From Xanthobacter autotrophicus (GTDB taxonomy: Bacteria > Pseudomonadota > Alphaproteobacteria > Rhizobiales > Xanthobacteraceae), in contig NZ_VAUP01000037.1 of NCBI RefSeq assembly GCF_005871085.1, forward strand, positions 248,001-312,000: 64,000 nt of DNA, in the 5' to 3' direction. Position 1 is the stretch's first letter, and the number at the start of each line of letters is the position of its first letter. Under the pieces are notes generated by a model. That model was not told the origin of the DNA and did not search any database. It saw nothing but the letters and a program-made list of their open reading frames with translations. Positions 3,592-48,725 of the stretch are shown here, one piece after another. A program made the position numbers and the translations under genes.

Positions 3592-3675
3592 AATATTTTT
3601 GGGAAATGGATCGTCCGCGACCGGGTTATGCTGCCCTGCAGCGGATCTTTTGACCGCAAGGCCTGCGAGGGAAAA

Positions 3676-4029
3676 ATGGGGCGCCTGTCCACGCATGTAC
3701 TCGACACCGTCGCTGGTGGTCCGGCGGCCAATGTGGCGGTTGAACTTTACCGTCTGACGCCGGATGGCTCGCGCACGCTCGTGACCGAGCGCCGCACCAA
3801 TGCGGACGGGCGTACCGACACGCCCCTGCTCGCGGGCGATGAGTTCAAGGCCGGCACCTACGAGCTTCAGTTCCACATCGGTGCGCATTTCCGCGCCACC
3901 GGCGCTCCGGCGTCCGATCCGCCCTTCCTCGACGTGGTGCCCCTGCGCTTCTCGCTGGCGGAGGACGGGCATTATCATGTGCCGCTTCTGTGCTCCCCGT
4001 GGAGCTACTCCACCTATCGGGGCTCCTGA
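3676..4029 (+). CDS. uraH: 5-hydroxyisourate hydrolase (transthyretin-like)
   Basis: Hydrolyses 5-hydroxyisourate, the product of PuuD, to OHCU. The 117-residue protein has the family's usual length and landmarks: [17 protein letters not shown] at the N-terminus, [10 protein letters not shown] in the middle, and the C-terminal [18 protein letters not shown] ending in the diagnostic YRGS. The ATG at 3676 has GCGAGGGA just upstream; longer in-frame starts add non-homologous sequence. It lies three bases before the puuE-uraD fusion gene, so the two are almost certainly co-transcribed and probably translationally coupled. No signal peptide is seen, so cytoplasmic action is expected. Confidence 0.93.
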
Positions 4030-4032
4030 GGA

Positions 4033-5481: not shown

Positions 5482-6758
5482 ACAAGGTCTTCCCCGTGCC
5501 GCAACCTGCCCCCGTCCCCACCCTCGCGCCCCTTGACGGCAATGCCATCACCGCCCGCCTGAAGGAGCTTGCCGCCTTCTCGGACGTACCGGGCGAGCTC
5601 ACCCGCCTCTCCCTCACCCCCTCCCACAAGCGGGCGGCGGCGCAGGTGTCGCACTGGATGCGCGAGGCCGGCCTCACCCAAGTCCACATGGACGCCACCG
5701 GCACCATCGTCGGGCGCTATGCGGCGGACCGGGCCAATGCCAAGACCCTGCTCATGGGCTCGCACATCGACACCGTGCGCAACGCCGGCATCTATGACGG
5801 AAACCTGGGCGTGCTCACCGCCATCGCGGCGGTGGAGGCCCTGAACGCGCAAGGCCTGCGCCTGCCGTTCGCCATCGAGGTGGCGGCCTTCGCGGATGAA
5901 GAGGGCGTGCGCTTCCTCTCCACCCTCACCTCGTCCAAGGCCATGGCGGGCATCTTCGACCCCAGGAGCCTGGAGGACGTGGACCAGCAGGGCATCTCCC
6001 GCGCCGAGGCGCTGCGCTCGTTCGGCGCGCCGGCGGAGCGTATCGCCGAATGCCGGCGCGATCCGGCAGACATGCTGGGCTATGTGGAAGTGCATATCGA
6101 GCAGGGCCCGGTGCTGGAGGCGGCGGGCGCGCCGCTCGGCATCGTCACCGGCATCGCCGGGGCCTCGCGCGGCCATATCCGCGTGCGCGGCGAGGCCGGC
6201 CATTCCGGCACCCTGCCCATGCCCATGCGCCACGACGCGCTGGCCGCCGCCGCCGAGATGATCCTCGCCGTGGAAGCCCGCGGCCGCGCCGATGCCGATG
6301 CCCTGGTGACCACGGTTGGCACCATGATCATTGCTGGCAGCGCCGTGAACGTGGTGCCGGGGGAGGTGCAATTCTCCCTCGACGTGCGCACCCTGTCCGA
6401 CGACCTGCGCCAGCGCGCCGTCGCGGACATCCGCGCGGCCATCGACGAGATCGCGGCGCGGCGCGGCGTGCGCGCCATCCTCGACATCGGCCACGAGGTG
6501 CCGGCCGCGCCCTGCCACGGCGTCCTGAAGGAGCGCATGGCGGAAGTTGTGGAGGGCCTCGGCCTGCCGGTGCTGCGCCTGCCCTCCGGCGCCGGTCACG
6601 ACGCCATGGTGTTCCGGGGCATCATGCCCATGGCCATGCTGTTCGTGCGCTCGCAGAACGGCAGCCACAATCCGCGTGAATACGCCTCCCCCGCCGACAT
6701 CGGCCTCGCCGCCGAAGCGCTCCACGCGTTTCTTCTGAAGACCGCAGGGGAGGTGTGA
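5478..6758 (+). CDS. allC: Allantoate amidohydrolase, M20 zinc family
   Basis: Zinc amidohydrolase of the hydantoinase/carbamoylase M20 family, 426 residues. Metal-binding and catalytic elements are visible: GSHIDTV (His96, Asp98), YDGNLGV (Asp107), ADEEGVRF (Glu141/142) and HIEQGP, with a C-terminal GAGHDAM. In this context it should convert allantoate to ureidoglycine/ureidoglycolate, releasing ammonia and carbon dioxide. It starts with an ATGA overlap with the puuE-uraD stop, so it is the third gene of the uraH operon. The family also includes N-carbamoyl-amino-acid and beta-ureidopropionate hydrolases; the neighbourhood, not the sequence, decides for allantoate. Confidence 0.88.
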   Translation: MNKVFPVPQPAPVPTLAPLDGNAITARLKELAAFSDVPGELTRLSLTPSHKRAAAQVSHWMREAGLTQVHMDATGTIVGRYAADRANAKTLLMGSHIDTVRNAGIYDGNLGVLTAIAAVEALNAQGLRLPFAIEVAAFADEEGVRFLSTLTSSKAMAGIFDPRSLEDVDQQGISRAEALRSFGAPAERIAECRRDPADMLGYVEVHIEQGPVLEAAGAPLGIVTGIAGASRGHIRVRGEAGHSGTLPMPMRHDALAAAAEMILAVEARGRADADALVTTVGTMIIAGSAVNVVPGEVQFSLDVRTLSDDLRQRAVADIRAAIDEIAARRGVRAILDIGHEVPAAPCHGVLKERMAEVVEGLGLPVLRLPSGAGHDAMVFRGIMPMAMLFVRSQNGSHNPREYASPADIGLAAEALHAFLLKTAGEV

Positions 6759-6888
6759 GCGGGTTGTGTACCTTGCTGGTGCGGTATCTCCGCGCCCGCG
6801 AGCCCCAGGTCGATCACGCGGGCTGGAAAGAGCGGCGAGGCGTTTCGGGCCGGGAAACCGCCATCCCGGCCTCCCGCCGCCGCCCCAT

Positions 6889-6917
6889 TTGACATTCGCT
6901 CCCGCCCTGCCTTTAGT
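6889..6917 (+). promoter_or_regulatory. Sigma70-type promoter of the cobalamin operon
   Basis: A perfect TTGACA (6889-6894) is followed after 17 bp by TTTAGT (6912-6917), a four-of-six match to TATAAT. It lies immediately upstream of the cobalamin riboswitch, where its promoter should be. The expected transcription start is near 6924. Confidence 0.6.
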
Positions 6918-7106
6918 GCCCGTGTCGAAGGTCCCGTGGTCCCACACGGGCGCAAAAGGGAATGCGGTGCGGGAGGCCTCTCCCAATGCCGTGGCTGCCC
7001 CCGCAACTGTAAGCGGTGAGCCCCTGCCAGATGCCACTGGCGCCGCAAGGCGCCGGGAAGGCGGCGGGGGCGCTGATCCGCGAGCCAGGAGACCTGCCTT
7101 CGACAA
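6918..7106 (+). ncRNA. Cobalamin (AdoCbl) riboswitch
   Basis: Leader RNA element that senses cobalamin and represses the downstream biosynthesis genes. Conserved blocks appear in order: a CCCGTG/CACGGG hairpin arm pair near 6920-6950, AAAAGGGAATGCGGTG around 6954-6969, the core GCCCCCGCAACTGTAAGCGG around 6996-7015, GCCACTGG around 7032, and the B12 box AGCCAGGAGACCTGCC at 7083-7098. It lies between the promoter and the DUF1636 gene, leaving about 110 bases to the first start codon for the expression platform. I see no clear intrinsic terminator there, so control of translation initiation is the likelier mode. Confidence 0.95.
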
Positions 7107-7214
7107 GGTCCGCGCCGGGCGGGGTGCTCCGGTTTGCGTCCCTTCAAGCCCGCCTTGCGCGGGCGGCCCGCGCACCCGTGGATATGTCTCGTGGAGCGCG
7201 GCGAACCTGCCGAC

Positions 7215-7661
7215 ATGACCGGCGTTGCCACGGCGGAGACCCCCGCCGGGACGACGCCCCGCGCGTACGACGCGCCGACCGCTATGCCCGGCGATCGTCC
7301 GGCCGTGACCGTCTTCGTCTGCACCACCTGCCGCAGCTCCGGCGAAGGCGCCTTCCCTGTCGATGGTGTCGCCCTCGCCGAAGCCACCGCGGCAGCCCAG
7401 TTGCCAGATGGCGTCGCGGTGCAGGGCGTGCGCTGCCTCGCCAACTGCAAGCGCGCCCTGTCCGCCGCCATGGTCCGCCGCGACGGCTGGACCTATGTGT
7501 TCGGCGACCTTTCCGCCGATGCCGCTCCCGACCTCATCGCCGGTGCGGCGCTGCTGGCGTCCTCCGGCGACGGCCTCATGCCCTGGCGCGGACGGCCCGA
7601 CAGCCTGAAGCGTGGCATGGTCGCCCGCATCCCGCCTTTGTCCCTTCCCAAGGAGCCCTGA
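7215..7661 (+). CDS. DUF1636 protein with four cysteines, first gene of the cobalamin operon
   Basis: A protein of about 148 residues of the uncharacterised DUF1636 family, commonly found with cobalamin genes. Four cysteines stand out: FVCTTCR (Cys36, Cys39) and RCLANCKRA (Cys74, Cys78). The second pair, in a CLxxC context, resembles thioredoxin-like [2Fe-2S] ferredoxins, so metal or cluster binding is likely; that is inference. The start is uncertain: ATG at 7215 is used, but GTG at 7191 is in frame and neither has a strong ribosome site, which might reflect riboswitch control of translation. Its stop overlaps the cobW start (TGATG). Confidence 0.75.
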   Translation: MTGVATAETPAGTTPRAYDAPTAMPGDRPAVTVFVCTTCRSSGEGAFPVDGVALAEATAAAQLPDGVAVQGVRCLANCKRALSAAMVRRDGWTYVFGDLSADAAPDLIAGAALLASSGDGLMPWRGRPDSLKRGMVARIPPLSLPKEP

Positions 7662-34270: not shown

Positions 34271-36361
34271 CTACTCGACCCGCACCGTCACGCTGTCGGA
34301 AAGCCCCGCCGCGTCGATCACGGTGAGGCGGGCAAAGCCCCGCCCCTGCGGCGTCCAGAACAGGGTGCGCCGGTCGTCCACCTGCGCCACAGGGCGGCCG
34401 TCCATCAGCAGGGTAAGCGGGAAGGTGCCGCCATCCACCTTGAGCGCGAGGGTCTCCGCCTCGGCGCCGGAAACCCGCGCGCCGTCCGGCGGATAGACCA
34501 CCTGCAAGGGCTGCTCCTGCCGGGTGCGGCCGAAATGGCGCTGCGGCACGGGAAGGCGAGCGTTCGCCGCCATCACCGCGCCGCGCGGCGCCGGGCCAAG
34601 GCCCGCCGGGGTGCGGACGATGCGGGCAAAGGCGTCGAACAAAAGCGGCGCCGCCGCCGCGCGGCCGGTGAGATCCGGCACCGCCTGCCCGTCCGGCCGG
34701 CCCACCCAGACGCCCACGGTGCGCCGCCCGTCGAAGCCCATGGCCCAGCTGTCGCGATAGCCGTAGGACGTGCCGGTCTTGAAGGCGATGCGGCCGCCCA
34801 GCGCATTCTCCGGCGCCGGCGTGCCCAGAAGGCACTGGCCCACGTACCAGGCCGCCACCTGATCCACGAGCTGGGACCGGCGCGGCGCCGTCACCGCGCG
34901 CCCTTCGCGGCGGAACACAAACGGATGCGCTTCCCCGCCCCGCGCCAGCGCGGCGTAGAGCATGGTGAGGTCCACGAGGCGGATGCCCACGCCGCCGAGC
35001 CCCATGGGCAAAGCCGGCGCCGCCCCCGGCGGCAGTTCCAGCCGCGCCCCGGCCTGCTGAAGGCGGGTGGCGAGGCGCTGCGGCCCCACCGCATCCAAGA
35101 GCCGCACCGCCGGCACGTTCAGGGACAATTGCAGCGCCTTGCGCACCGAGAGGGTGCCCTGGAAGCTGCGGTCGAAATTCTCCGGCCGCCAGCCGCCGAA
35201 ACGGGCCGGCCGGTCCTCGATCATCGTCTCGGGATGGGCGATGCCGTCCTCGAAGGCGAGGGCGTAGATGAAGGGCTTGAGCGTCGAGCCTGGCGAGCGC
35301 ACCGCGCGGGCAAGATCCACCGCGCCGGCGCGGTTCTTGTCGAGGAAATCCGCCGAGGCCACATAGGCCCGCACCTCGGCGCTGTCATTGTCCATCACCA
35401 CCATTGCGGAGGACAGACCGCGGCCCAGAGCCCGCGTGCGCTCGCGCACCAACTCCTCCAGCTTCTCCTGCAGCGGCGCGTCGAGGGTGGAGAGGTGGCG
35501 GGAGAGATCCGGCCGCTCGGCCACCATCTGCTCGGCCAGATGAGGCGCCAGTTGCGGCAAGGGGCGCCGCGCCGTGGGCACCGGCTCGGCCTTGGCCACG
35601 CGCACCTCGTCGGCGGCAAGCAGGCCCTGGGACAGAAGCCGGTCCAGCACCCGGTCGCGCGCCGCCCGTGCCCGGGCCGCAAAGCGATCCGGCCGGCGGG
35701 TTTCCGGCGCCTGCGGCAGGGCCACCAGCAAGGCCGCCTCGCCGAGGGTGAGCCGGCGCGGCTCCTTGCCGAAATAGGTCAGCGACGCCGCCCGCACCCC
35801 CTCGATGTTGCCGCCATAGGGGGCGAGCGTCAGATAGAGCCCGAGGATCTCGGGCTTGGACAGATGGGCCTCCAGCTCCAGTGCCCGGCGCATCTGGGCG
35901 AGCTTGGCGGCGAGGGTGCGCGGACGCGGCGGCAAAGTGAGGCGCGCCACCTGCATGGTGAGCGTCGAGCCGCCGGAGACCACCCGCCGCGATCCCGCCG
36001 CCTGCCCTGCCGCCCGCAGCAGCGCCAAGGCATCGACGCCGCCATGTTGCTCGAACCGGCGATCCTCATAGGCGAGGATCATGGTGATGAGGCGCGGGTC
36101 CACGTCCTCCACCGTGGCGGCGAGGCGCCAGCGGCCATCGGGCAGCGCGAAGGGCCGCAGCAGCCGGCCCTCGCGATCCACCACCTCGGCCGAGACCTTC
36201 ACCTGCGGCGCAGGCGGAGCGTTGGCGCGCAGATGATGCAGCCCCGCGAAGCCGCCGCCCACCAGCACCCCCGCCCCCAACACAAGGCCGGCCGCCACCC
36301 GCCGCAGACGGCGGCGGGCGGGAGCGGCGGGCGATGGCCCGGATGGCTGGGTCGCGCTCAT
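34271..36361 (-). CDS. pbpC: Penicillin-binding protein 1C
   Basis: Bifunctional peptidoglycan synthase homologue of 696 residues. There is one N-terminal membrane helix (about 22-42) and a GT51 transglycosylase domain with catalytic Glu99 in AYEDRRFEQHGGVD and GGSTLTMQ. The transpeptidase domain has S359-T-L-K362, SLN (413-415) and KTG (528-530), all intact, and a C-terminal PBP1C-specific domain ends the protein. The ATG overlaps the alpha-2-macroglobulin stop by four bases, the usual pairing in bacteria. It is probably active outside the cytoplasmic membrane, repairing or protecting the wall. Confidence 0.94.
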   Translation of the reverse strand: MSATQPSGPSPAAPARRRLRRVAAGLVLGAGVLVGGGFAGLHHLRANAPPAPQVKVSAEVVDREGRLLRPFALPDGRWRLAATVEDVDPRLITMILAYEDRRFEQHGGVDALALLRAAGQAAGSRRVVSGGSTLTMQVARLTLPPRPRTLAAKLAQMRRALELEAHLSKPEILGLYLTLAPYGGNIEGVRAASLTYFGKEPRRLTLGEAALLVALPQAPETRRPDRFAARARAARDRVLDRLLSQGLLAADEVRVAKAEPVPTARRPLPQLAPHLAEQMVAERPDLSRHLSTLDAPLQEKLEELVRERTRALGRGLSSAMVVMDNDSAEVRAYVASADFLDKNRAGAVDLARAVRSPGSTLKPFIYALAFEDGIAHPETMIEDRPARFGGWRPENFDRSFQGTLSVRKALQLSLNVPAVRLLDAVGPQRLATRLQQAGARLELPPGAAPALPMGLGGVGIRLVDLTMLYAALARGGEAHPFVFRREGRAVTAPRRSQLVDQVAAWYVGQCLLGTPAPENALGGRIAFKTGTSYGYRDSWAMGFDGRRTVGVWVGRPDGQAVPDLTGRAAAAPLLFDAFARIVRTPAGLGPAPRGAVMAANARLPVPQRHFGRTRQEQPLQVVYPPDGARVSGAEAETLALKVDGGTFPLTLLMDGRPVAQVDDRRTLFWTPQGRGFARLTVIDAAGLSDSVTVRVE

Positions 36362-39300
36362 CGGGCGGGGGCCACCTCCAGCGTGCCGGCGGCGGTGCGG
36401 GCGAAGCGGTCGGGGCGGTACATGTCCTCCACCATGGCGGGGGGATGGGCATAGCGCCCGGGCGAAACCGCCCGCACCGTGTAGGCGACGACGAAGGCGC
36501 CATCACCCTCCTGCCGGGTCACCGAGGCGACGAAGCGGTCGTCGCGGAACTCCACGTGGCCCGCCTCGCTGGTCTCATCCAGCCAGGTGAAGCCGCCGTC
36601 GCCGCCCTGGACGAGGCTCGGATTCTCGATCTCGAAGCCGGCGGGCAGATAGTCCACCAGCAGCACGTCGGCCAGCGCGCTCTGGGTCTCGCTGAACGAG
36701 AGCACCACCGCGAAGCGCTGGTTCTGCACCGCCTTGGAGGGGTCGGCGGCCTTGCCGTCGAGGGTGAAGTAGCGCCGCTCCAGGGTGAAGCCCTTCGCCA
36801 CCGGTGGCTCCGGCGCCACGGGGGCGCCATTGATGCCGATCACCACCTTCACCGCCTCGGCGCCGGCATTGCGCAGGGTCACCGGCCCGCGCTCCAGATC
36901 GGCGCGAGAAAGCTTGCGGCCGAACGGGCCGCGCACCAGACCTCCATCCACCTCAAGCCCCATGTTGGCGGCGCTGGCCGCGAGCGAGCGGGCGGCGAGC
37001 AGCAGCCAGGCGTTTTCCTGCGTGGAGGTGCGCTCGGTGCGTACCCGCGCCGCATCCACGCGGGCAAGCGCCACGTCGGCCAGCTTCTCCAGGCCCGCCT
37101 CGCGGGCGAGCACGGTGAGGGCCGCCGCATCGCGCAGCACCGAGCCGAAATCGGGCCGGCCCGCCACCGGCGCACCGGGATTGGCGGGCAGGCCCTCGAT
37201 GGCCACGTTGAAGGCCCGTTCCGCCCGGGTGCGATCCCCGAGCAGGGCGAGCGCCGCGCCCACCTGTCCCTTGGCGAGGGGGGTGCCGAGGTCCTTCAGC
37301 CTTGTATCGGCCAGATAGCGCAGATCGCCCAGGGGCGCGCGGCCGTTGCGGGCCAGTACATAGAGCGCATAGGCGAGGTTCTCGGTCTCCGCGCGCATGT
37401 CGGCGCCGGCGAGGTTGACCACGTTGCGCAGCCGGTCGAGGGCCAATGAGAAGGCCACCTCCGGCACGGCAAAGCCCTTCTCCTTGGCGCGGCTCAGGAA
37501 ATCCACCACATAGGCGTCGAGCCAGGTGTCGGTGCCACCCGCCGACCACAGGCCGAACGAGCCGTCCGAGCCCTGCCGGGCCATGATCCGCACGATGGCG
37601 TCGCGGATGCGCTGGTCCGCCTCCGGGTCGGTGGCGCGGCCCGCCAGCACGCTCAGCTCGTTGTAGGACAGGAGCGGCAGCGCCCGGCTGGTGATCTGCT
37701 CGGTGCAGCCATAGGGGTAGCGGTCGAGGGCGGCCAGCAGGGCCGGCACGTCGATGGTGCTGGAAGGCATGGCGCTCACCGCCACGCTGCCGGTCCCCGG
37801 CAACAGGTCGGCGAAGAGGTCGCGCGACAGCGTGATGCTCTCGCCCGGCGCGAGCGTGCGCACGGTACGCCGCTCGATGTCCGGATAGGCCGGGCGCACG
37901 TTCATCTCGAAGCTGCGGGTGATGTCGAGCCCCTGCCCCGTCAGCCGCGCGGTGACGGTGGCGGGTCCCACGCTCTTGCCTTCCAGCGCGAGCCGCAGGG
38001 ACTGGCGCTGCTTGGCCGCCAGCGTCACCGGGCCTGCCGGCTGGGTGACGGTGGCCGCACCGGTGGCGGAGACATCAAGGCGATACTCGCCGTCGGGCGC
38101 CTCCACATTGGTGAGGTCGAGGTTCAGGCTGGAGCGGTCGCCGGAGGCGAGGAAGCGCGGCAGGGTGGCGAGCATCACCACCTTGTCGCGCACCACCACG
38201 TCGGCGGAGGCATGTCCGAGCTTGCCGGCGCTCCAGGCGATGGCCATCACCCGCGCGGTGCCGTCAAAGGCGGGGATGGGGAAGGCGACCGAGGCGGTGC
38301 CGTCCGCCCCGACTTCCACGAGGCCGGAGAACAGCGCCAGCGGCGGCCCGTTCGGCGGGCTCGCGAGCATGGCGGTCTCGCCGCCGTCGCCGCCCGAGCG
38401 CAGCCGACCGGCGGCGCCCTGCATGCCGTCGATAAGCGCGCCGTAGAAATCGCGGATGTCGGAGGCCAGCCGGCGCTGGCCGAACACCACCGCATCGGGC
38501 GCCGGCGGCTTGTAGCCGGTGAGGTTGAGGATGCCCACATCCACCGCCGCCACCGTCACATAAGCCTTCTCGCCCGCGCTGAGGCCGCTGACGCGCACCG
38601 GCACGGTAAGGCTAGTGTTGGGGCGGATCTGGGCGGGCGGCGTCAGTTCCACCTTCAGGGTGCGCGCCTCCTTGTTCACGGAGAACCAGGAGAGGCCGAT
38701 GGCGCGGCCGGGCATGCGGCTCGCCCCCACGTCGAGCGGCCGGTGCATGAAGGCCACCACATAGGCCCCCGGCCCCCAACCTGCGCCCACCTTGAAGCTC
38801 ACCTTGTTAGCGCCGGGCGAAACAGTGAGGAACTTCTGCTCCAGAAGGCCCTCGTTGAGCACCAGCACGCTGGCGGTGCCGGCGGCGCGGGCGGTGAGGG
38901 TGGCATCCAGCGTGTCGCCGGAGGCATAGGCGGCGCGGTCCAGCGTCAGCTCCAGCCGGTCGGGCGTGTCGGCGCTGCCCTCGCCGGCAAATCCCGCCTC
39001 GAACGGCAGGCTGGTGAGCGGCAGGCCGTCGCCGATGATGTCGAGGCGGTAGCGGCCATACTCAGTGGGCACGGCGAGGCGCGCGGGACCGTCCGCCTTG
39101 GTGTCGAGCCGGCCTTCCGCCACGCGGGTCACGGTCTTCACCGGCTCATAGTCCCACGAGCCGCTGACGCGATACCACTGGTAGCGCGTCTCGATGCGCG
39201 AGAGCTTCCAGGAGAGGCCGGGGGCCGCGAGGAGCTTGTCGTCGGTGCCGGCGACCACCACGTCGAAATTGGCCACTTCCCCTTCCCGCACCCGATCGGC

Positions 39301-41706
39301 GAACAGCGGCTTCACGCCGATCTGGCTGCCTGCCGGCGCCACCGGCAGCACGATGGTGCGCTGGACCGCGCGCCCGCCCGCCTCCACAAGGCGCACGAAG
39401 GCTTCCATCTCCAGCGGCCGGGCCGTGCGCGGCAGTTCGGAGGCGATGAGCCGCAGGCTGGCGCGGCCGCGCGCGTCGGTGGTGGGCGTATCCGCCAGCG
39501 GCTGGCGCTCGGCCAGCACTTGGTCATCCCCATTGCCGAAGCGATAGCCGGCAAAGCCGGGGCGCTCGGCGGCGGCGCGCAGTTCACTCTCCGCCTCCAC
39601 GTCGAGGCCGGAAGCGGGGGCGCCGAACAGAAAGCGCCCGTCCACCAGCACCTCGGCCGGCCGGTTGCGCGGCAGGCGCGTCTCACGGGCGGAGAGGTCG
39701 AATTCCACCCGGTCGGGCACATAGTCTTCCACCAGGAAGGTCACCTCGCCCACGGCCGGCGCCTTGGGATCGGTGAGCGCCTTGGCCCGCCAGGTGCCGG
39801 TCATGGCGCCCGTGAGCAGGGTGAAGTCCGCCGTGCGCCCGCCCGCGCCCTGGTCCGCCACCACGAGGCGCCGGTCGGCGACCCCGTCGGGCCGGAAAAG
39901 CTGGAGGGTCAGGGGCACGCCGGGTGCGGCATTGCCCTGCGCGTCCCGCAGCAGCACGGTGAGATGCACGCTCTCGCCGGACCGGTAGACGCCGCGCTCG
40001 GTGGCGAGGAAGGCATCCAGCCCCCCCGGCGCATCGCGGCCGGACACGCCGCGGTCGGTGAGGTCGAAGGCGGTCTCCTTCAGCGACAGGAAGGCATAAT
40101 CGCCGCCCTCCGTGCGCGCCGTCACCACCTCCGGCCCGAGGCCGGCGGGGCCGCGGGAGAGGCCGGCATCGAAGCGCACATAGCCGTTGGCATCGCTCTT
40201 GGCCGTGCCCAGAACCTCGTTGGAGCGGGCGATGAGGCGCACCTCCGCCCCGGCCACCGGCTCGGCGCTGCCCAGAGAGCGCAGCAGCACATGGACGCCG
40301 TCCTGTCCCGACAGGGCGGTGAGGCCGAGATCGGAGACGATGAACCACTGGGTTGCCCTGGTGGAATAATCGTCGTCGCCGGCGGTCTTCTGCGGCTCGG
40401 CGGTCATCACATAGACGCCGGGCTCAAGCCGCCCCACGGCCTCGGCGACGGGCATGGCGGTGGTGACATCGGCGTTCAGCGGATTGTCCACCTCCAGCAC
40501 GCCGGAATAGACGGCGATGGCGCTACCGTCGGCCAGCCGCTCACGCGTATAGGCCTCGATGCCCTGCCGGAATTCGCCCTGGATGGCGGTTGGCACAAGG
40601 CCCCGGTCGCCGATGCGCAGGATGTCGACCTTCACCGCGCTGGTGTTCACCGAAACCAGCGGAATGCCCTTCTGCCCGGTGCGCGGCAGCACATAGTTGC
40701 GGCCGGTGAAGCGCACGGTGGGCGAACGGTCGCGCACATAGATGGTGAGTTCGGTGGACTTGCGCAGCCGCTCGCCGGTGACGGCGGGAATGCCGGGGCG
40801 CACCGCCAGCGTGTAGCGCTCGCCGTGCTTCAGGCCCTCGACGCAGATCTGTCGGGCCTCGCCGGTGATGGCCGGCTTGTCCAGTCCTCCCACCTGTACG
40901 AAGGCGGCGAAATCGGTGCCGGGCACCAGATCCTCGGAGAATTGCACGCAAGCGCGCGGGGCGGCGGCGTCCGATTCCACCGAATAGTCCACCAGCCGGA
41001 ACCCGTGCTCCTCCTTCAGCTTGTCGAGGAAAGTGCGGTCGGCGGCGTTGTCGCGCAGGTCGAGGGCCGTCTTCATGGTATCGATGGCGGCGTTCCACAG
41101 GCGCCGATCGGCATAGACGCGGCCGATGAAGGACAGGGCCTCGCCCTCCTCCGCCCGGGTCTGCGCCCGGCGATAGGCGATGAAGGCGGCGCCCATGGCA
41201 TTGTCGACGAAGGCGGACGCGTCCTCGGTGTCGGTCGCCTTGATGGCGGCCAGCGAGCGGGCAAGGCGCAGCCACACCCCCGCATCCTGCGCCTGGGCGA
41301 CGGCGAGGCTGGCATACAGCTCGGCGGCGGCGCGGGCATCGTTGCGCTGGAAAGCCTGGGCGGCGTCACGGCGCACCTTGTCGAGGGGCTGGCTGGGCGC
41401 GGTCACCTCCCGCCGCAGCACGCGCTCATAGCGGCGCGCGGCGCTCACCAGATCCGAGCGCTGGAAGGTCTTGAGGCTGGCGGGACGCGGCGGCACGGGC
41501 GGCTGGGGCTGGGCCGAAGGCGCGCCGCCCGGCACCGTCGCCGGCGGGCGCGGCACCTGCCCGAATGCCAGAGTTGCAGGGGCCGATACCGCGACGGCAA
41601 GGCAGGCGACGCGGCCGAGCGTCAGGAGGCGCCGGCGCAGGGATATTCCGCGAAGCGAATCGGAACGCGAAAACTCACGGCGCAGGAAAAAACGGCGAAG
41701 GTCCAT
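36358..41706 (-). CDS. Bacterial alpha-2-macroglobulin with intact thioester
   Basis: A 1782-residue periplasmic protease-trap protein of the YfhM type. An N-terminal basic stretch and a hydrophobic export segment (LGRVACLAVAVSAPATLAFG) precede tandem macroglobulin domains. The thioester motif is intact as YGCTEQ with Cys1334, and PEVAFSLALDRLRN and similar helices follow in the thioester domain. No good lipobox is seen at the N-terminus, so it may be soluble in the periplasm, unlike the lipoprotein in E. coli. It is transcribed first and overlaps pbpC by four bases; the pair is thought to guard and repair the envelope. Confidence 0.93.
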   Translation of the reverse strand: MDLRRFFLRREFSRSDSLRGISLRRRLLTLGRVACLAVAVSAPATLAFGQVPRPPATVPGGAPSAQPQPPVPPRPASLKTFQRSDLVSAARRYERVLRREVTAPSQPLDKVRRDAAQAFQRNDARAAAELYASLAVAQAQDAGVWLRLARSLAAIKATDTEDASAFVDNAMGAAFIAYRRAQTRAEEGEALSFIGRVYADRRLWNAAIDTMKTALDLRDNAADRTFLDKLKEEHGFRLVDYSVESDAAAPRACVQFSEDLVPGTDFAAFVQVGGLDKPAITGEARQICVEGLKHGERYTLAVRPGIPAVTGERLRKSTELTIYVRDRSPTVRFTGRNYVLPRTGQKGIPLVSVNTSAVKVDILRIGDRGLVPTAIQGEFRQGIEAYTRERLADGSAIAVYSGVLEVDNPLNADVTTAMPVAEAVGRLEPGVYVMTAEPQKTAGDDDYSTRATQWFIVSDLGLTALSGQDGVHVLLRSLGSAEPVAGAEVRLIARSNEVLGTAKSDANGYVRFDAGLSRGPAGLGPEVVTARTEGGDYAFLSLKETAFDLTDRGVSGRDAPGGLDAFLATERGVYRSGESVHLTVLLRDAQGNAAPGVPLTLQLFRPDGVADRRLVVADQGAGGRTADFTLLTGAMTGTWRAKALTDPKAPAVGEVTFLVEDYVPDRVEFDLSARETRLPRNRPAEVLVDGRFLFGAPASGLDVEAESELRAAAERPGFAGYRFGNGDDQVLAERQPLADTPTTDARGRASLRLIASELPRTARPLEMEAFVRLVEAGGRAVQRTIVLPVAPAGSQIGVKPLFADRVREGEVANFDVVVAGTDDKLLAAPGLSWKLSRIETRYQWYRVSGSWDYEPVKTVTRVAEGRLDTKADGPARLAVPTEYGRYRLDIIGDGLPLTSLPFEAGFAGEGSADTPDRLELTLDRAAYASGDTLDATLTARAAGTASVLVLNEGLLEQKFLTVSPGANKVSFKVGAGWGPGAYVVAFMHRPLDVGASRMPGRAIGLSWFSVNKEARTLKVELTPPAQIRPNTSLTVPVRVSGLSAGEKAYVTVAAVDVGILNLTGYKPPAPDAVVFGQRRLASDIRDFYGALIDGMQGAAGRLRSGGDGGETAMLASPPNGPPLALFSGLVEVGADGTASVAFPIPAFDGTARVMAIAWSAGKLGHASADVVVRDKVVMLATLPRFLASGDRSSLNLDLTNVEAPDGEYRLDVSATGAATVTQPAGPVTLAAKQRQSLRLALEGKSVGPATVTARLTGQGLDITRSFEMNVRPAYPDIERRTVRTLAPGESITLSRDLFADLLPGTGSVAVSAMPSSTIDVPALLAALDRYPYGCTEQITSRALPLLSYNELSVLAGRATDPEADQRIRDAIVRIMARQGSDGSFGLWSAGGTDTWLDAYVVDFLSRAKEKGFAVPEVAFSLALDRLRNVVNLAGADMRAETENLAYALYVLARNGRAPLGDLRYLADTRLKDLGTPLAKGQVGAALALLGDRTRAERAFNVAIEGLPANPGAPVAGRPDFGSVLRDAAALTVLAREAGLEKLADVALARVDAARVRTERTSTQENAWLLLAARSLAASAANMGLEVDGGLVRGPFGRKLSRADLERGPVTLRNAGAEAVKVVIGINGAPVAPEPPVAKGFTLERRYFTLDGKAADPSKAVQNQRFAVVLSFSETQSALADVLLVDYLPAGFEIENPSLVQGGDGGFTWLDETSEAGHVEFRDDRFVASVTRQEGDGAFVVAYTVRAVSPGRYAHPPAMVEDMYRPDRFARTAAGTLEVAPAR

Positions 41707-43178: not shown

Positions 43179-44000
43179 TCAGGCCATGATGGAGAGGCCG
43201 CCGTCCACATAGACGGTCATGCCGGTCAGCCGCCGCGCGAAGGGGGTGGCGAGGAAGGCCGTGGTGAGGCCCACGTCGTCGATGTCCACCAGTTCCCCGA
43301 TGGGCGCGCGCTGGGTCGCCTCGGACAGGAGCACGTCGAAATCCTTCAGGCCCGAGGCGGCGCGGGTCTTCAGCGGGCCGGGCGAGACGGCATGGACACG
43401 GATGTCCTTTTGGCCGAGTTCGTAGGCAAGATAGCGCACCGTGCTTTCCAGCGCCGCCTTCACCGGTCCCATGAGATTGTAGTTGGGCACCACCTTTTCG
43501 GCGCCGTGATAGCTCATGGCCATGAGCGTGCCGCCACCCGTCATCAGCGGTTCGGCGAGCTTCGCCATGCGGATGAAGGAGTGGCAGGAAATGTCCATGG
43601 CCACCTTGAACCCCTCCGCCGAGGAATCCACCAGCCGGCCCTGAAGGTCATCCTTGGGCGCGAAGGCAATGGAATGCAGCGCGATGTCGAGGCCGCCCCA
43701 CTCCTTCCCGATGCGGGCGAAGACGGCTTCCAGCTCCCCCTCCCGGCTCACGTCGCAGGGGGCGAAGATGCTGGCGCCCAACTCCTGCGCCAGCGGCTCC
43801 ACATGGGGCCGCGCCTTCTCGTTGAGGTATGTGATCGCCAGCTCCGCGCCGAGCCGGCGGAACACCCGGGCGCAGCCATAGGCGATGGAATGCTCGTTGG
43901 CGATGCCCAGCACCAGGGCCTTGCGGCCCTTCAGCGCCGCTCCCAGCAGGTCCCAGTCCGGCTGCGACATGGAACCCGTCGTCGTCTCCTGCGCGCTCAT
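43179..44000 (-). CDS. fabI: Enoyl-[acyl-carrier-protein] reductase (FabI family)
   Basis: SDR-fold reductase of 273 residues. GIANEHSIAYGCARVF is the FabI cofactor motif, and the catalytic Tyr-x6-Lys is YNLMGPVK (Tyr174, Lys181); the end ARRLTGMTVYVDGGLSIMA fits the family. It may reduce enoyl-ACP, but its place in the phosphotransacetylase/acetate kinase/DUF3141 operon suggests a special rather than the main fatty-acid-synthesis copy; that is inference. The ATG at 44000 overlaps the DUF3141 stop by four bases; an internal Met at residue 11 is an alternative start. Confidence 0.88.
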   Translation of the reverse strand: MSAQETTTGSMSQPDWDLLGAALKGRKALVLGIANEHSIAYGCARVFRRLGAELAITYLNEKARPHVEPLAQELGASIFAPCDVSREGELEAVFARIGKEWGGLDIALHSIAFAPKDDLQGRLVDSSAEGFKVAMDISCHSFIRMAKLAEPLMTGGGTLMAMSYHGAEKVVPNYNLMGPVKAALESTVRYLAYELGQKDIRVHAVSPGPLKTRAASGLKDFDVLLSEATQRAPIGELVDIDDVGLTTAFLATPFARRLTGMTVYVDGGLSIMA

Positions 44001-46282
44001 ACGGCCTGCCCTGCGTAGGAAGGAAAAGGAATGACCTGACCCTCGGCGCCCTGCCGCGCCGGGCCCTCGGCCAGCACGCGCTTCACATCGGCGACCACGT
44101 CGTTCACATCCGGCCCGAAGGCGATGTTCGCAAGCAGCCGGTCGAGCAACGTCAGCAGGTGGGCACGCGCCTCGGGCGTGGGAAGCAGCGCCGGAAGCGT
44201 GGCGAGGGCCTCGTCGGGCGCATGCTCGACGATGATGGACTGCCGCCGGATGATCGCCTGCCCGTCGTCGGCCGGCAGCGCGAGGAGGCCCACCTCCTGC
44301 CCCACCAGCTCGCGGATCTGCTTCAGGATGGAGAGCCTCTGCTGGCCGCCGCCGCGCTTCTGGGCCAGCAGCGCCACGCGCACCGCCGCATCGGTGAAGC
44401 CGCCCTCGCGCAGGTTGGCAAGGGCGGACGCCACCTCAACCGGCGGCTGCTCCACGATGGCGGGCGTCGTCGGCGCCGTGAGGTCGGGGTCCAGCATGGC
44501 GAGGGTGCCGTAGAGGCGGAAGAATTCCGTCTCCACGGTGGCGTCGCGCAGTTGCCGGTAGAGGTCGAAGCCGGCGGTGATGGCGGTGGCCAGGAAATGC
44601 TCGGCGGCCACGTGCGGGCCGTCCTCGTTGCGCGGGGTGCGCTGGCCACGGGCAAATTCGGCGAAGGGCGCCAGGGCCGCGAGCAACGGATTGAGGTCGG
44701 AGAGGCCCCAGCGTGCCGCCCGCAGTGGATGCACCGCCCGCAGCACCCGCCCCATCTCCGGCGTCACCACCGCCGAGAGAACGGGATGCACGAAAGTCTC
44801 ATAGGCCCGCGCGTTGACCTGCGAGACATTCGCCACCACCTCGAACGGGATCTCGTCGTTCCGGCTGTATTTCTGCAGCAGGTCGAGGTCTTCCACCCGG
44901 CGCTCGGTGAGCGTCACGTCGTATTTCACCTCGCCGCCGGAATGATCCTCCTCGATGGTCATGCCATAGAGGCCCGGCGCCAGCGCCTCCACATAGTCGA
45001 TGAGGTCGACGATCTGCGCATGCTCGCGCTTGGCCACCGCACCCGAGACGAAGATGCCCAGATGGCCGACGCTTTCGTGCATCAGGCCTACCACCACCTG
45101 CCCGGCACTCTTGAGGGCCTGCGTGGTGGGATAGAGGTCGGCGACCCAGTTGATGGCCTGCTGCGGCGGGGTGATGTTGTCGCCCAGCGAGGCGAAGATG
45201 ATGATGGGCGAGCGCACCGCCTTCAGGTCGAAGGACTTGCCCGGCGCCCATTCCGCCTTGCCGGCGGCAAGCTTGTTGCCGACGAACAGATTCTCGACGA
45301 TCCACTTGATCTCTTCCCGGTTCATCAGGAAGTAGCCGCCCCACCAGCGCTCGAATTCCAGGAAGCGCGCCGGCTCGGTGTCGATGCGGGAATAGAGGGT
45401 GTAATACTTGCCGAAATAGGTGTTGGCCGGGTTCAGATACTCGAAATTGTCCACCAGATAGGCGCCGTCGAAGACCCCGCCACCGAGGTCCGCGGCCAGC
45501 GAGGCCGTCCACGCGCCGCCGAGCACGCCGCCGGCGTAGCGCATGGGGTTCTCGGCGTCGTTGCCGGCCCAGTAGGACATGGGCGCGCCGTTCACCACGA
45601 TGGGACCCACATTGTCGGGATCCAGCGCCGCCACCAGCATGGCGGCCCAGCCACCCTGGCAATTGCCCATCACCACCGGCTTGTCGCAGGTGGGATGGCG
45701 CTCGCGCACGATGCGCACGAACTCGGCCTCCGCCAGCGAAACGTCCGCCAGCGTCTGCCCCGGCACCGGCTCAGGGAAGAAGATGACCATGTAGACCGCG
45801 TGCCCGGCCTTCAGCGCGAAGCCGACTTCCGAATCCGCCTTGAAGCCGCCGATGCCAGGCCCATGGCCGGCGCGCGGATCGATGATCAGGAACGGCCGCT
45901 TGTCGGGATCGAGCGTCACCCCCTCGGGGGGCAGAATGCGCACCAGGGCGTAGTTGGCGGGGCGCGCGAAGCTGCGCGCATCGGCGATCGTCTCATAGTC
46001 GAAGGCGAGCAGCGGTGGCTTGCCGGCCTTCTCGTGGGCGATCCAGTTGTTGCCGCGCTGGCGCATGGTGTCCCAGAAGATGAGGGAGCGCTGGGCCGCA
46101 TCGAACGTGTAGGAGACCGTGTCGCGCCAAGCGGAAACGGGATCCTGGGGCCGGCCGGCGGCCGCAAACGCGCTTGCCGCGCCCCGCATGGCGGCGCCAT
46201 AGGCCGAGACCGCCTCGCCGAGGCGCAGGCGGTAGATCTCCGCCACCCGGCCGTACACTTTCATCATGTCCAACGGGTCCAT
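43997..46282 (-). CDS. DUF3141 protein with PHA-synthase-like Cys lipase box
   Basis: A 761-residue protein of the DUF3141 family, of unsettled function. Residues about 90-420 look like an alpha/beta-hydrolase: PFLIIDPRAGHGPGIGGFK, then VVMGNCQGGWAAM, where Cys208 stands in a G-x-C-x-G box as in PHA synthase. Asp368 in SLGDNITPP and His407 in SVGHLGIF would complete a Cys-Asp-His triad. The C-D distance (160) is close to that of C. necator PhaC (319 to 480). The C-terminal part is helical and unassigned. AAGGAG precedes the ATG at 46282. It is the third gene of pta-ackA-DUF3141-fabI. Confidence 0.78.
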   Translation of the reverse strand: MDPLDMMKVYGRVAEIYRLRLGEAVSAYGAAMRGAASAFAAAGRPQDPVSAWRDTVSYTFDAAQRSLIFWDTMRQRGNNWIAHEKAGKPPLLAFDYETIADARSFARPANYALVRILPPEGVTLDPDKRPFLIIDPRAGHGPGIGGFKADSEVGFALKAGHAVYMVIFFPEPVPGQTLADVSLAEAEFVRIVRERHPTCDKPVVMGNCQGGWAAMLVAALDPDNVGPIVVNGAPMSYWAGNDAENPMRYAGGVLGGAWTASLAADLGGGVFDGAYLVDNFEYLNPANTYFGKYYTLYSRIDTEPARFLEFERWWGGYFLMNREEIKWIVENLFVGNKLAAGKAEWAPGKSFDLKAVRSPIIIFASLGDNITPPQQAINWVADLYPTTQALKSAGQVVVGLMHESVGHLGIFVSGAVAKREHAQIVDLIDYVEALAPGLYGMTIEEDHSGGEVKYDVTLTERRVEDLDLLQKYSRNDEIPFEVVANVSQVNARAYETFVHPVLSAVVTPEMGRVLRAVHPLRAARWGLSDLNPLLAALAPFAEFARGQRTPRNEDGPHVAAEHFLATAITAGFDLYRQLRDATVETEFFRLYGTLAMLDPDLTAPTTPAIVEQPPVEVASALANLREGGFTDAAVRVALLAQKRGGGQQRLSILKQIRELVGQEVGLLALPADDGQAIIRRQSIIVEHAPDEALATLPALLPTPEARAHLLTLLDRLLANIAFGPDVNDVVADVKRVLAEGPARQGAEGQVIPFPSYAGQAV

Positions 46283-46353: not shown

Positions 46354-47565
46354 TCAGATCTGGCCGGCATCCTGCCGGCTCTCCGCCAGCACCGCGCGCA
46401 TCTCGCGCACGATGGTCCATTCCTCGTCAGTGGGGATCACATAGGCCTGCGGGCCGCTGCCCCTGGTGATGCGGGTCGCGCCGGAGCGGTTGGCTTCCGG
46501 GTCCAGCTCGAAGCCGGCCCAGCGGGCGGCCTCGATCACCTCGGCGCGGGTGGCGGCATCGTTCTCGCCGATACCGGCGGTGAAGACGAGGGCGTCGAGG
46601 CCGCCCAGCGCCGCCACCAGCGAGCCGAACTCCCGATTGATGCGATAGATGAACAGGTCGATGGCCCGCTGCGCGCTCGGCTCCGCCTCCGCCTTCTCGC
46701 GCAGTTCGCGCATGTCGTTGGAGATGCCGGAGACGCCGAGCAGGCCGCATTTGGTATAGAGGAAATGCTCGGCCTCCAGCGCGCTCATGCCCAGTTCGCG
46801 TTGGAGATAGAACACCACTCCCGCATCGATGGTACCGCAGCGTGTGCCCATCACCAGCCCATCCAGGGCGGAAAAGCCCATGGTGGTGGCGATGCTCTTC
46901 GATGCCAGCAGGGCACCAAGGCTCGCGCCCGAGCCGAGGTGCGCCGCCACCACCCTGCCGTGGACGAGGCGCTCGTCCACGTGCGGAAACTGGGTGGCGA
47001 GATAGGCATAGGACAGGCCGTGGAAGCCGTAGCGCTTCACCCCCGCGTCGGTGAGGGACTGCGGGATGGCGAAGGCCTGGGCGATCTCCGGCTGGGTGCG
47101 GTGGAAGGCGGTGTCGAAGGCCGCCACCTGCGGCAGGCCCGGCACCCGCCGCGCGATGATGCGGATGGGCTCCAGGCTGCGCGGCTGGTGCAGCGGCGCC
47201 AGCGGGGAGAACTTGTCCAGCTCGGCGATGATCTCCGGCGTCAGCCGCACCGCGTGAGTATAGTTGGGTCCGCCATGCACCACGCGATGGCCCACGGCGG
47301 CGAGCTGGTGGCCGCCGCGATGGGCGGCAAGCCAATCGGAGAGATAGGCCAGCGCCTCCTCGAAGCCGAAAGCGGCATTTTGAAGCCAGCGCTCCTCGCC
47401 CACCACTTCGCCCTCATGGTCCTTCACCCGGAAGCGCGGATCGGTGCCAAGGCCCTCGAACAGGCCGCGATAGAGGCGATTGGGCACATCCGCCCCGTCG
47501 TCCACGAACACCTGGAACTTGAGGCTGGAGGAGCCGGCATTCAGGACAAGCTGCACCTTCGCCAT
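46354..47565 (-). CDS. ackA: Acetate/propionate kinase
   Basis: Acyl-phosphate kinase of 403 residues that interconverts acetyl phosphate plus ADP with acetate plus ATP. VLNAGSSSLKFQVF is the family's N-terminal phosphate-binding signature; VGHRVVHGG, FDTAFHRTQP and GFHGLSYAY are conserved blocks, and LVFTAGIGEND is the C-terminal motif. The start at 47565 gives a standard N-terminus (MAKVQLVLNAG). It follows pta with only two bases between stop and start, so it is the second gene of the operon. Confidence 0.93.
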   Translation of the reverse strand: MAKVQLVLNAGSSSLKFQVFVDDGADVPNRLYRGLFEGLGTDPRFRVKDHEGEVVGEERWLQNAAFGFEEALAYLSDWLAAHRGGHQLAAVGHRVVHGGPNYTHAVRLTPEIIAELDKFSPLAPLHQPRSLEPIRIIARRVPGLPQVAAFDTAFHRTQPEIAQAFAIPQSLTDAGVKRYGFHGLSYAYLATQFPHVDERLVHGRVVAAHLGSGASLGALLASKSIATTMGFSALDGLVMGTRCGTIDAGVVFYLQRELGMSALEAEHFLYTKCGLLGVSGISNDMRELREKAEAEPSAQRAIDLFIYRINREFGSLVAALGGLDALVFTAGIGENDAATRAEVIEAARWAGFELDPEANRSGATRITRGSGPQAYVIPTDEEWTIVREMRAVLAESRQDAGQI

Positions 47566-47567
47566 GC

Positions 47568-48551
47568 TCAGACCTCCACCGCCTTGGCGATCGCGCGCTG
47601 CGCCTCGGCCAGCAGAGCCGCCACGGCGCACGAGGCGAGCCGCGTGGTCTTGGAATCCGCCCGGCTGGTGAGGATGATGGGCACCCGCGCCCCGAGCACG
47701 ATCCCGGCGGCATCGGCGCCGGCCAGGAAGGTGAGGCTTTTCGCCAGCATGTTGCCGGCCTCAAGGTCCGGCACCACCAGAATGTTGGCCCGCCCCGCCA
47801 CCGGGGAGGTGATGTGCTTGATGGCCGCCGAGCCGAGGTCGATGGCGTTGTCGAGGGCCAGCGGCCCATCCACGATCCCGCCGGTGATCTGGCCGCGATC
47901 AGCCATCTTGCACAGGGCCGCCGCCTCGATGGTGGAGGGCACGTTGGGGTTCACCGTCTCCATGGCCGAGAGCACGGCGACGCGCGCCTCCTCGAACTTC
48001 ATCGCATGGGCAAGGTCGATGGCGTTCTGGACGATATGGCTCTTGTCTTCCAGCGAGGGGGAGATGTTGATGGCCGCATCCGTGATGATCAAGGCATCCG
48101 GGTGACTGGGCACATCCATCACGAAGCAATGACTGATGCGCCGCGCGGTACGCAGGCCGGTATCGCGGGCCACCACCGCGCCCATCAGTTCGTCGGTGTG
48201 GAGGCTGCCCTTCATCAGGGCGTCGGCCTCACCGCAGCGTACCAGTTCCACCGCCTTGGCGGCGGCATCGTGGCTGTGGGCGGCGTTCACCTGCCGCACA
48301 GCGGAAATGTCCAGCTTGGCAGCGCTCGCGGCCGCCGCGATCTTCCCCGGCGGGCCGACCAGGATGGGCTCGATGAGGCCAAGCTCGGCCGCCTCCAGCG
48401 CCGCGCCGAGGGAGGCCTCATCGCACGGATGAACGACTGCCACCCTCAGCCGAGGCAAGGCCTGCGCGGCAGCGATGAGGCGATCATACTTCTCGTGACG
48501 CGGCGCCTGGGCGTGAGGAATGGACGGCTCTAGGGCGATGGAGGCCGGCAT
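47568..48551 (-). CDS. pta: Phosphate acetyl/butyryl-transferase
   Basis: Acyl-CoA:phosphate acyltransferase of 327 residues, related to the Pta catalytic domain and to Ptb. Conserved pieces are LMKGSLHTDELMGAVV, RISHCFVMDVPSHPDALIITDAAIN and DGPLALDNAIDLGSA; the end is MLAKSLTFLAGADAAGIVLGARVPIILTSRADS-like in order. It lacks the N-terminal regulatory domains of long Pta and may belong to the enoyl-CoA hydratase-linked phosphate acetyltransferase group. The ATG at 48551 has AGGGAGA eight bases upstream; the TTG just before it (48554) is a less likely start. First gene of the operon. Confidence 0.87.
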   Translation of the reverse strand: MPASIALEPSIPHAQAPRHEKYDRLIAAAQALPRLRVAVVHPCDEASLGAALEAAELGLIEPILVGPPGKIAAAASAAKLDISAVRQVNAAHSHDAAAKAVELVRCGEADALMKGSLHTDELMGAVVARDTGLRTARRISHCFVMDVPSHPDALIITDAAINISPSLEDKSHIVQNAIDLAHAMKFEEARVAVLSAMETVNPNVPSTIEAAALCKMADRGQITGGIVDGPLALDNAIDLGSAAIKHITSPVAGRANILVVPDLEAGNMLAKSLTFLAGADAAGIVLGARVPIILTSRADSKTTRLASCAVAALLAEAQRAIAKAVEV

Positions 48552-48659
48552 CAAGATTTCTCCCTGTCGTCCCGCCTGGCCGGTACACGATCGTCCTCTC
48601 CCCGGCGATCCAAAGCGCGACAGGTGGAGGAAAATTCACGACCGGGTCAGGTTCAAGCC

Positions 48660-48687: not shown

Positions 48688-48725
48688 AGGCTCTCGTCTT
48701 CCATGACACAAATCAATCATGGATT

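Follow-up and report, generated by a model that had tools for sequence, protein, structure and literature searches.

A DUF3141 protein encoded with pta, ackA and fabI in Xanthobacter autotrophicus is a PHA synthase relative that may help to mobilise stored polymer

Proteins of the DUF3141 type have entered the literature under several names, and extracts of the papers cited throughout this text speak of polyhydroxyalkanoate (PHA) synthases, depolymerases or possible mis-annotations. PhaC2 of Halomonas TD01, a 92-kDa protein with a GxCxA box and an identified triad, was discussed as a novel subclass in 2011 (PMC3227634); its box is given as GNCQAG in PMC8686332. Genes of this GNCQAG type from two strains gave no polyhydroxybutyrate (PHB) in Escherichia coli (PMC12229310, citing a 2014 paper), which is why a 2025 paper called their function unresolved. 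A change of Cys329 or Cys331 is said to abolish PHA synthesis (PMC7175313, citing the same 2014 paper), although the numbering and context lead us to take that enzyme for the other, canonical synthase. DUF3141 has also been grouped with the PHA synthase 5hz2 and a Cys-Asp-His triad, PhaZ being credited with such a triad likewise (PMC11878206); a Jeongeupia DUF3141 gene was labelled phaZ (PMC8050969), and another was placed after phaCAB (PMC8601165). Here we analysed a DUF3141 gene and its operon in a 64,000-nucleotide stretch of Xanthobacter autotrophicus (contig NZ_VAUP01000037.1, positions 248,001 to 312,000), referred to as the window. A first-pass annotation of this DNA had proposed a PhaC-like role for the protein and regarded the family as having no settled function, which the literature bears out. 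The PhaC-like idea is largely in print already (PMC3227634, 2011; PMC11878206, 2024); what we add is the family-wide context, namely the companion PhaC, the operon, the FixK/FNR boxes and the PhaR unit described below, and a direction of reaction that can be tested.

The DUF3141 open reading frame (ORF) occupies 43997..46282 on the minus strand and encodes 761 amino acids that scored 771.6 bits against PF11339 (gathering cut-off 29.7), making the protein a member of that family. Its start is the ATG at 46282; a further in-frame ATG at 46420 falls within ackA. The chain begins with two helices (residues 1-85); residues from about 90 to 435 form a PhaC-like alpha/beta-hydrolase core, and those from about 460 to 745 make up a helical C-terminal part. 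Numbered from the ATG at 46282, the putative nucleophile Cys208 lies in a GNCQGGW box (codon 45659..45661), the putative acid Asp368 in GDNITPP (45179..45181) and the putative base His407 in GHLGIF (45062..45064), all on the minus strand and all where the first-pass annotation had located them. We are close to certain that this core is homologous to PhaC and that the three residues occupy the catalytic positions.

Cys208 and Asp368 are 160 residues apart, and Asp368 and His407 are 39 apart; the corresponding residues of the C. necator PHA synthase are Cys319, Asp480 and His508. Conservation was assessed in an alignment of 27 DUF3141 members (A1) and in 38 loci drawn by the family profile rather than by motif, the window being included in both. 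C208, D368 and H407 were invariant in 27/27 A1 members. The triad was likewise present in all 38 profile-drawn loci, including the Cys on whose conservation the original proposal had been staked; the Cys-Asp spacing ranged from 157 to 161, and the Asp-His spacing was 39 in every case. Invariance by itself is weak evidence, since 84 other A1 columns were also invariant; it is the alignments and the structural model described below that tie the protein to PhaC. A further 80 loci were left out of this count because the patterns used to find them contained the Cys box or the GHLGIF motif; 79 of them entered the protein list (L179 was omitted for want of a GHG motif), and 63 of these with the window made up a second alignment, A2. 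A check of plasmids found all three residues in 12 of 13 proteins and no match to the His pattern in the other. Next below DUF3141 in the profile searches, at 68-83 bits, came a family of about 400 amino acids with GLCQGGW and GGHIGLFMG motifs (L019-L021, L061-L063), which formed a group of its own in a quick tree.

The window protein matched PhaC models of NCBIfam at E 2.8e-10 (class III) and 7.9e-4 (class I). The scores, 39.7 bits against TIGR01836 (cut-off 365.3) and 18 against TIGR01838 (cut-off 622.65), lay far below the thresholds of both, and TIGR01839 was not listed in that search. Such sub-threshold matches recurred in A1, to class I in 26/27 members and to class III in 25/27. In Pfam at E up to 0.1, neither PhaC_N (PF07167) nor the intracellular PHB depolymerase family PF06850 was listed for the window protein. 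Alignment with hhalign favoured class III PhaC (30 sequences; probability 98.6, E 8.7e-16, score 127) over class I PhaC (9 sequences; 93.6, score 69), PhaZ (25 sequences; 85.9, score 57) and 14 generic alpha/beta hydrolases of the same genome, three of them lacking a G-x-S-x-G match (84.0, score 54). The class III alignment paired Cys with Cys, Asp with Asp and His with His, and also the stretch GHLGIFVSG with GHIGIYVSG; in the class I alignment Cys and Asp were paired but His was not. The profile comparison suggested in the first-pass annotation came out best with class III; the model scores stayed far below the class cut-offs.

An AlphaFold2 model built with 64 sequences (predicted local distance difference test, pLDDT, 88.9; predicted template modelling score, pTM, 0.89) has C208 at the strand-helix turn after strand 203-207, D368 after strand 360-365 and H407 after strand 396-402. 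The predicted model thus places the triad at the usual alpha/beta-hydrolase positions; judged by position in the fold, it gives no sign of the wide separation of the three residues that had been named as the adverse outcome. When VIA-align was run on Foldseek's top 1000 chains, seven PhaC entries of the Protein Data Bank (PDB) ranked first (Z 22.7-24.8), followed by gastric lipase (21.1); 9knl_B superposed on the model at 3.7 Å over 322 residues. This ranking and the class III pairing of all three residues uphold the PhaC-like Cys-Asp-His arrangement proposed at the outset. Ordered by Foldseek E-value, other hydrolases led, and among the best 50 rows PhaC came 10th, 28th and 43rd; a phmmer search of PDB sequences gave nothing below E 0.38. 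A quick unrooted tree kept DUF3141 as one group (support 56) and placed class I and class III PhaC together (support 95, with six other rows). Because of these profile and structure comparisons, we regard the core as PhaC-like yet outside the PhaC classes tested: DUF3141 is related to PhaC but, far below the cut-offs and without PhaC_N, belongs to none of its classes.

For the helical C-terminal part modelled alone (pLDDT 84.9, pTM 0.60), Foldseek gave no match with E of 0.001 or lower. The best VIA row for residues 625-738 (44069-44410, minus strand) was 2h5n_A, with Z 7.9 and 3.4 Å over 104 residues (next row 5.2), which is below what can be relied on in a helical region. Pfam searches with the C-terminal parts of 64 members returned no consistent family besides DUF3141. 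A phasin-like N-terminus and a TerB-like C-terminus had been guessed from appearance and were dropped.

As the first-pass annotation had it, pta, ackA, DUF3141 and fabI follow one another in this order on the minus strand. The pta gene (47568..48554; PRK11890, 508.8 bits, cut-off 413) encodes a phosphate acyltransferase and is followed by an ackA-like gene for an acetate/propionate family kinase (46354..47571; TIGR00016, 342.6 bits, cut-off 293.4), whose start is provisional because the ORF stays open up to 47631. Downstream of DUF3141, and sharing 4 bases with its stop, begins fabI, for an enoyl-acyl carrier protein (ACP) reductase (43179..44000; PRK07533 of NCBIfam, 460 bits, cut-off 337). 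Counting same-strand genes within 5 kb only, all three partners lay near DUF3141 in 20 of the 38 profile-drawn loci, in five different gene orders, and one or two of them in six more. Persistence of the four genes side by side while their order changes suggests that they share a function. The fabI gene was near DUF3141 in 23/38 loci, in three of these without pta and ackA. Among the 80 pattern-found loci, some on contigs that end close by, 41 had all three partners and 22 had none. Recurrent neighbours of 32 partnerless loci reflected mainly the local synteny of close relatives.

Two loci call for separate description. A second DUF3141 gene of the window genome (G000:C39, locus L085, 8786-11275, minus strand) has a second fabI, a MaoC-Pta fusion and ackA at 3665-7217 on the plus strand; it was counted as partnerless because these genes are on the other strand. 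On a plasmid of Pseudomonas veronii (L192), phasin, DUF3141, pta, ackA, fabI1, phbB and phbC are packed into about 12 kb, an arrangement that speaks for a link to PHA; this locus, the source of our phasin query, was the only one of 128 with a phasin in its flanks. We also observed a protein of about 158 amino acids in or near the operon (L189:11306-11782; directly upstream of DUF3141 in L105-L116). It matched 20 loci, its own included, and had no significant Pfam or NCBIfam family. In the Roseomonas-like loci L152, L153, L156, L159, L166 and L169, an opposite-strand protein near DUF3141 looks by eye like a 3-hydroxyacyl-CoA dehydrogenase.

Full-length DUF3141 (above 600 bits) was found in 12 of 289 genomes of a class sample, the window genome among them, and in 27 of 398 of a phylum sample, two of these copies being broken by stop codons. 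Every one of the 34 genomes with an intact copy also encoded a canonical PhaC, recognised by PhaC_N; in the phylum sample as a whole PhaC_N occurred in 234/398 genomes (E up to 0.001), a comparison that ignores kinship. The window genome itself encodes two PhaC, of which one passes the class I cut-off, and it matches PF06850 three times. The hydroxyacyl or PHA role first proposed thus keeps its link to PHA metabolism, but the evidence does not support reducing it to that of a PHA synthase: the protein falls far below the PhaC cut-offs, a canonical PhaC accompanies it in 34/34 genomes, and PMC12229310 cites a report of no PHB from two such genes.

The partner enzymes bear on which acyl group might be handled. 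The window Pta scored 303 bits against the phosphate butyryltransferase model and 76.5 against the classical Pta model, both below their own cut-offs, and two relatives that were scanned scored alike. PRK11890, the model that it passed, is named phosphate acetyltransferase; this name favours the earlier label of an acetyl-phosphate operon, but the 303 against 76.5 bits leave that label uncertain. The window Pta has no MaoC domain, whereas some other Pta copies are MaoC-fused. MaoC-domain proteins occur, for example, in L085, L078, L079, L175 and L186. In 13 of 21 proteins with the domain the hydratase motif SGDxNPxH reads SGN, and in three of the SGN proteins (L077, L182, L183) its final His is also Asn. 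The Asp of this motif matters in PhaJ-type hydratases. Judged by motif, SGN-type MaoC domains are perhaps inactive or changed hydratases.

We then considered regulation. The FixK/FNR box TTGA-N6-TCAA occurred upstream of the operon in 10/115 loci, where shuffled sequences gave 0.85 on average (maximum 4), and in 7/38 profile-drawn loci against 0.19 (maximum 2); the latter are not independent, since five of the seven belong to five loci of one sister genus in the same family. An FNR palindrome with one mismatch was found in 14/115 upstream regions against 0.7 in shuffles (maximum 3). By these motif counts, FixK/FNR boxes are enriched upstream of DUF3141 operons. Upstream of the window pta there is no exact TTGA-N6-TCAA; a near-match with one mismatch at 48703..48716 (minus strand) is weak on its own. 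The upstream region in L085 has an FNR-like site with a single mismatch (TTGATCAATATCAG). Control through a PHO box was considered and rejected: matches with at most three mismatches occurred in 5/115 upstream regions against 4.1 in shuffles (maximum 9), and at most four mismatches gave 44, where shuffles gave 26.7 (maximum 37), so that only degenerate matches were in excess. In the window the one 3-mismatch site lies inside the gene, as chance predicts. In B. diazoefficiens, pta (blr3457) and ackA (blr3458) were strongly induced in a phaR mutant, and blr3456, a hypothetical protein with 7.2 and 7.2 in two expression columns, heads blr3456-blr3459, which is listed among PhaR-repressed units and is preceded by two PhaR-type motifs (PMC10888616). 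Since the order DUF3141-pta-ackA-fabI holds in all five sister-genus loci, blr3456 would be the DUF3141 gene.

Taken together, our best explanation, to which we give a probability of about 0.4, is that DUF3141 is an accessory PHA-mobilising acyltransferase, active at low oxygen, that feeds a phosphotransbutyrylase-like Pta and AckA. Cys208, Asp368 and His407 would form a hydroxyacyl-thioester intermediate bound to the Cys, as in PhaC, with the enzyme working on PHA (PHB) granules beside the main polymerase. It would act mainly at low oxygen or when PhaR repression is absent, transferring 3-hydroxyacyl chains from polymer to coenzyme A (CoA) by thiolysis, the PhaC reaction reversed. The phosphotransbutyrylase-like Pta would then make an acyl phosphate, from which the AckA-like kinase would recover ATP, while FabI may reduce an enoyl thioester and so dispose of electrons. 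Of this scheme, the homology to PhaC, the invariance of the triad, the operon and the joint occurrence with canonical PhaC are observed; PHA as the substrate, the reaction direction, CoA as acceptor and what Pta, AckA and FabI do are inferred. We favour release because a canonical synthase is present in 34/34 genomes and two relatives gave no PHB (second-hand), because the blr3456 operon is repressed by the PHB-binding PhaR and FixK/FNR boxes are enriched, and because Pta and AckA can conserve thioester energy as ATP. There are precedents in the thiolysis of PHB by PhaZ1, which yields 3-hydroxybutyryl-CoA (PMC3430594; PMC7147478), and in an engineered Ptb-Buk route in which Buk acts on (R)-3-hydroxybutyryl phosphate (PMC7147478).

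Several observations weigh against mobilisation. The operon could also work in the other direction, toward acetate uptake and PHA synthesis, and one GNCQAG gene was expressed under PHA-producing conditions (PMC12229310). Pta carries the acetyltransferase name above cut-off and sits below the butyryltransferase cut-off, AckA passes the acetate/propionate kinase cut-off and is far from butyrate kinase, and the hydratase motif in 21 MaoC-domain proteins was SGN in 13, SGD in 4 and not found in 4. None of the three partners was near DUF3141 in 12 of the 38 profile-drawn loci; the closest relative found, Xanthobacter L104 (76% identity), had no partners in its 8-kb flanks. With the queries used, canonical PhaC turned up in the flanks of just 2 of 128 DUF3141 loci (L099 and L192). 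As to regulation, TTGA-N6-TCAA occurred in only 3/77 named loci against 0.61 in shuffles (maximum 2), and a window scan for the FNR box with up to one mismatch found none near the operon. The PhaR-type motif is presumed abundant in the B. diazoefficiens genome (PMC10888616), and the blr3456 promoter is a putative site of PhaR binding; the equation of blr3456 with DUF3141 comes from gene order; and the main text of a microoxia proteome paper has no blr345x (PMC6515984).

Other explanations account for parts of the same evidence. DUF3141 might itself be a PHA synthase, forming a class of its own and active only with its own partner or phasin, or on other monomers, with pta and ackA supplying acyl-CoA made from acetate or similar acids. 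PhaC homology and the triad would be expected of such an enzyme, as would the novel subclass raised for the Halomonas TD01 protein (PMC3227634), the acetate supply proposed for phaC-pta-ack clusters (PMC8231600) and expression under PHA conditions (PMC12229310). We nevertheless think it improbable, given that canonical PhaC is also present in 34/34 genomes, that two related genes yielded no PHB in E. coli by the second-hand account in PMC12229310, and that PhaC_N is not listed and scores fall far below PhaC cut-offs. Hydrolysis of the polymer with water instead of CoA, by an intracellular PHA depolymerase, would fit the Cys-Asp-His triad shared by PhaZ (PMC11878206) and the phaZ label of the Jeongeupia gene (PMC8050969). 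The PhaZ profile, at a score of 57, came out below PhaC and about level with generic hydrolases (54), PF06850 was not listed for the window protein, and the window genome already has its three PF06850 matches; this is the reading that we find hardest to credit.

A role outside PHA metabolism is somewhat less probable than a separate synthase class and less doubtful than a hydrolytic depolymerase. Here DUF3141 would serve fatty-acid metabolism, paired with FabI, as a thioesterase or acyltransferase that acts on acyl-CoA or acyl-ACP. The association with fabI in 23/38 loci, three of them without the other two genes, and the rarity of pha genes in DUF3141 flanks speak for this, and many alpha/beta hydrolases share the fold and top Foldseek's E-value list. 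PhaC, however, tops both the profile comparison and the VIA list, it is found in all 34 genomes, and the B. diazoefficiens operon is under PhaR control (PMC10888616).

If mobilisation by DUF3141 is right, it would explain how rhizobia, and Halomonas used to produce bioplastic, could draw ATP from PHA under limited respiration. A bolder version, which we hold to be about as unlikely as the fatty-acid role, is that DUF3141, the phosphotransbutyrylase-like Pta, AckA and FabI, in some cases joined by a hydratase domain, constitute a pathway dedicated to fermenting stored bioplastic. When oxygen is low, the Cys enzyme would free 3-hydroxyacyl-CoA from granules, an enoyl thioester would serve as FabI's electron sink, Pta and AckA would yield ATP, and 3-hydroxybutyrate or butyrate would be excreted. 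PHA would then be a fermentable reserve, beyond a respiratory one, in many proteobacteria; a limited literature search found no description of such a pathway. Assigning these proteins to one family, to an operon with PhaR and probable oxygen control in some hosts, and to a phosphotransbutyrylase-like Pta reduces a puzzle of annotation to a few assays.

Elsewhere in the window, a 1782-aa alpha-2-macroglobulin-like protein by eye, with a YGCTEQ thioester-type motif (36358-41706, minus strand), adjoins what looks like a penicillin-binding protein (34271-36361, minus strand), probably an ordinary pair.

Compared with described systems, the DUF3141 core most resembles class III PhaC (TIGR01836), with which it shares the fold, a G-x-C-Q-G-G box, the GH[LI]GI[FY]VSG motif and the aligned Cys, Asp and His. 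It differs in its added helical ends, in the 39-residue Asp-His gap and in having Asn after the catalytic Asp where class III PhaC has His. As an operon, the nearest counterpart is the Sinorhizobium ORF-pta-ack-fabI operon reportedly described by Summers in 1999. The order DUF3141-pta-ackA-fabI is found in S. meliloti Rm41 and on S. medicae pSymA, and by this order the Sinorhizobium ORF would be the DUF3141 gene. In S. meliloti, phosphate starvation switches the operon on via phoB (PMC8231600). In B. diazoefficiens blr3456-blr3459, pta and ackA likewise occupy the second and third places, blr3456 being named only as hypothetical. Burkholderia has phaC-pta-ack-fabI clusters, and its 'group D' phaC-pta-ack clusters combine the partner genes of DUF3141 operons with a protein outside the known PhaC classes; the 2-24% identity reported between the D1 protein and the S. 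meliloti ORF (PMC8231600) suggests that D1 may be another lineage. The 'PhaC2' proteins of Halomonas TD01 and Halomonas sp. O-1 (GNCQAG box, 89-93 kDa) resemble DUF3141 in box and long C-terminus, that of TD01 also in its triad and COG3243 match, and judging from box and size they very probably belong to the same family. In Halomonas TD01, fabI, bi-pta and ackA lie together and phaC1 elsewhere (PMC8686332), whereas in the window these genes flank DUF3141.

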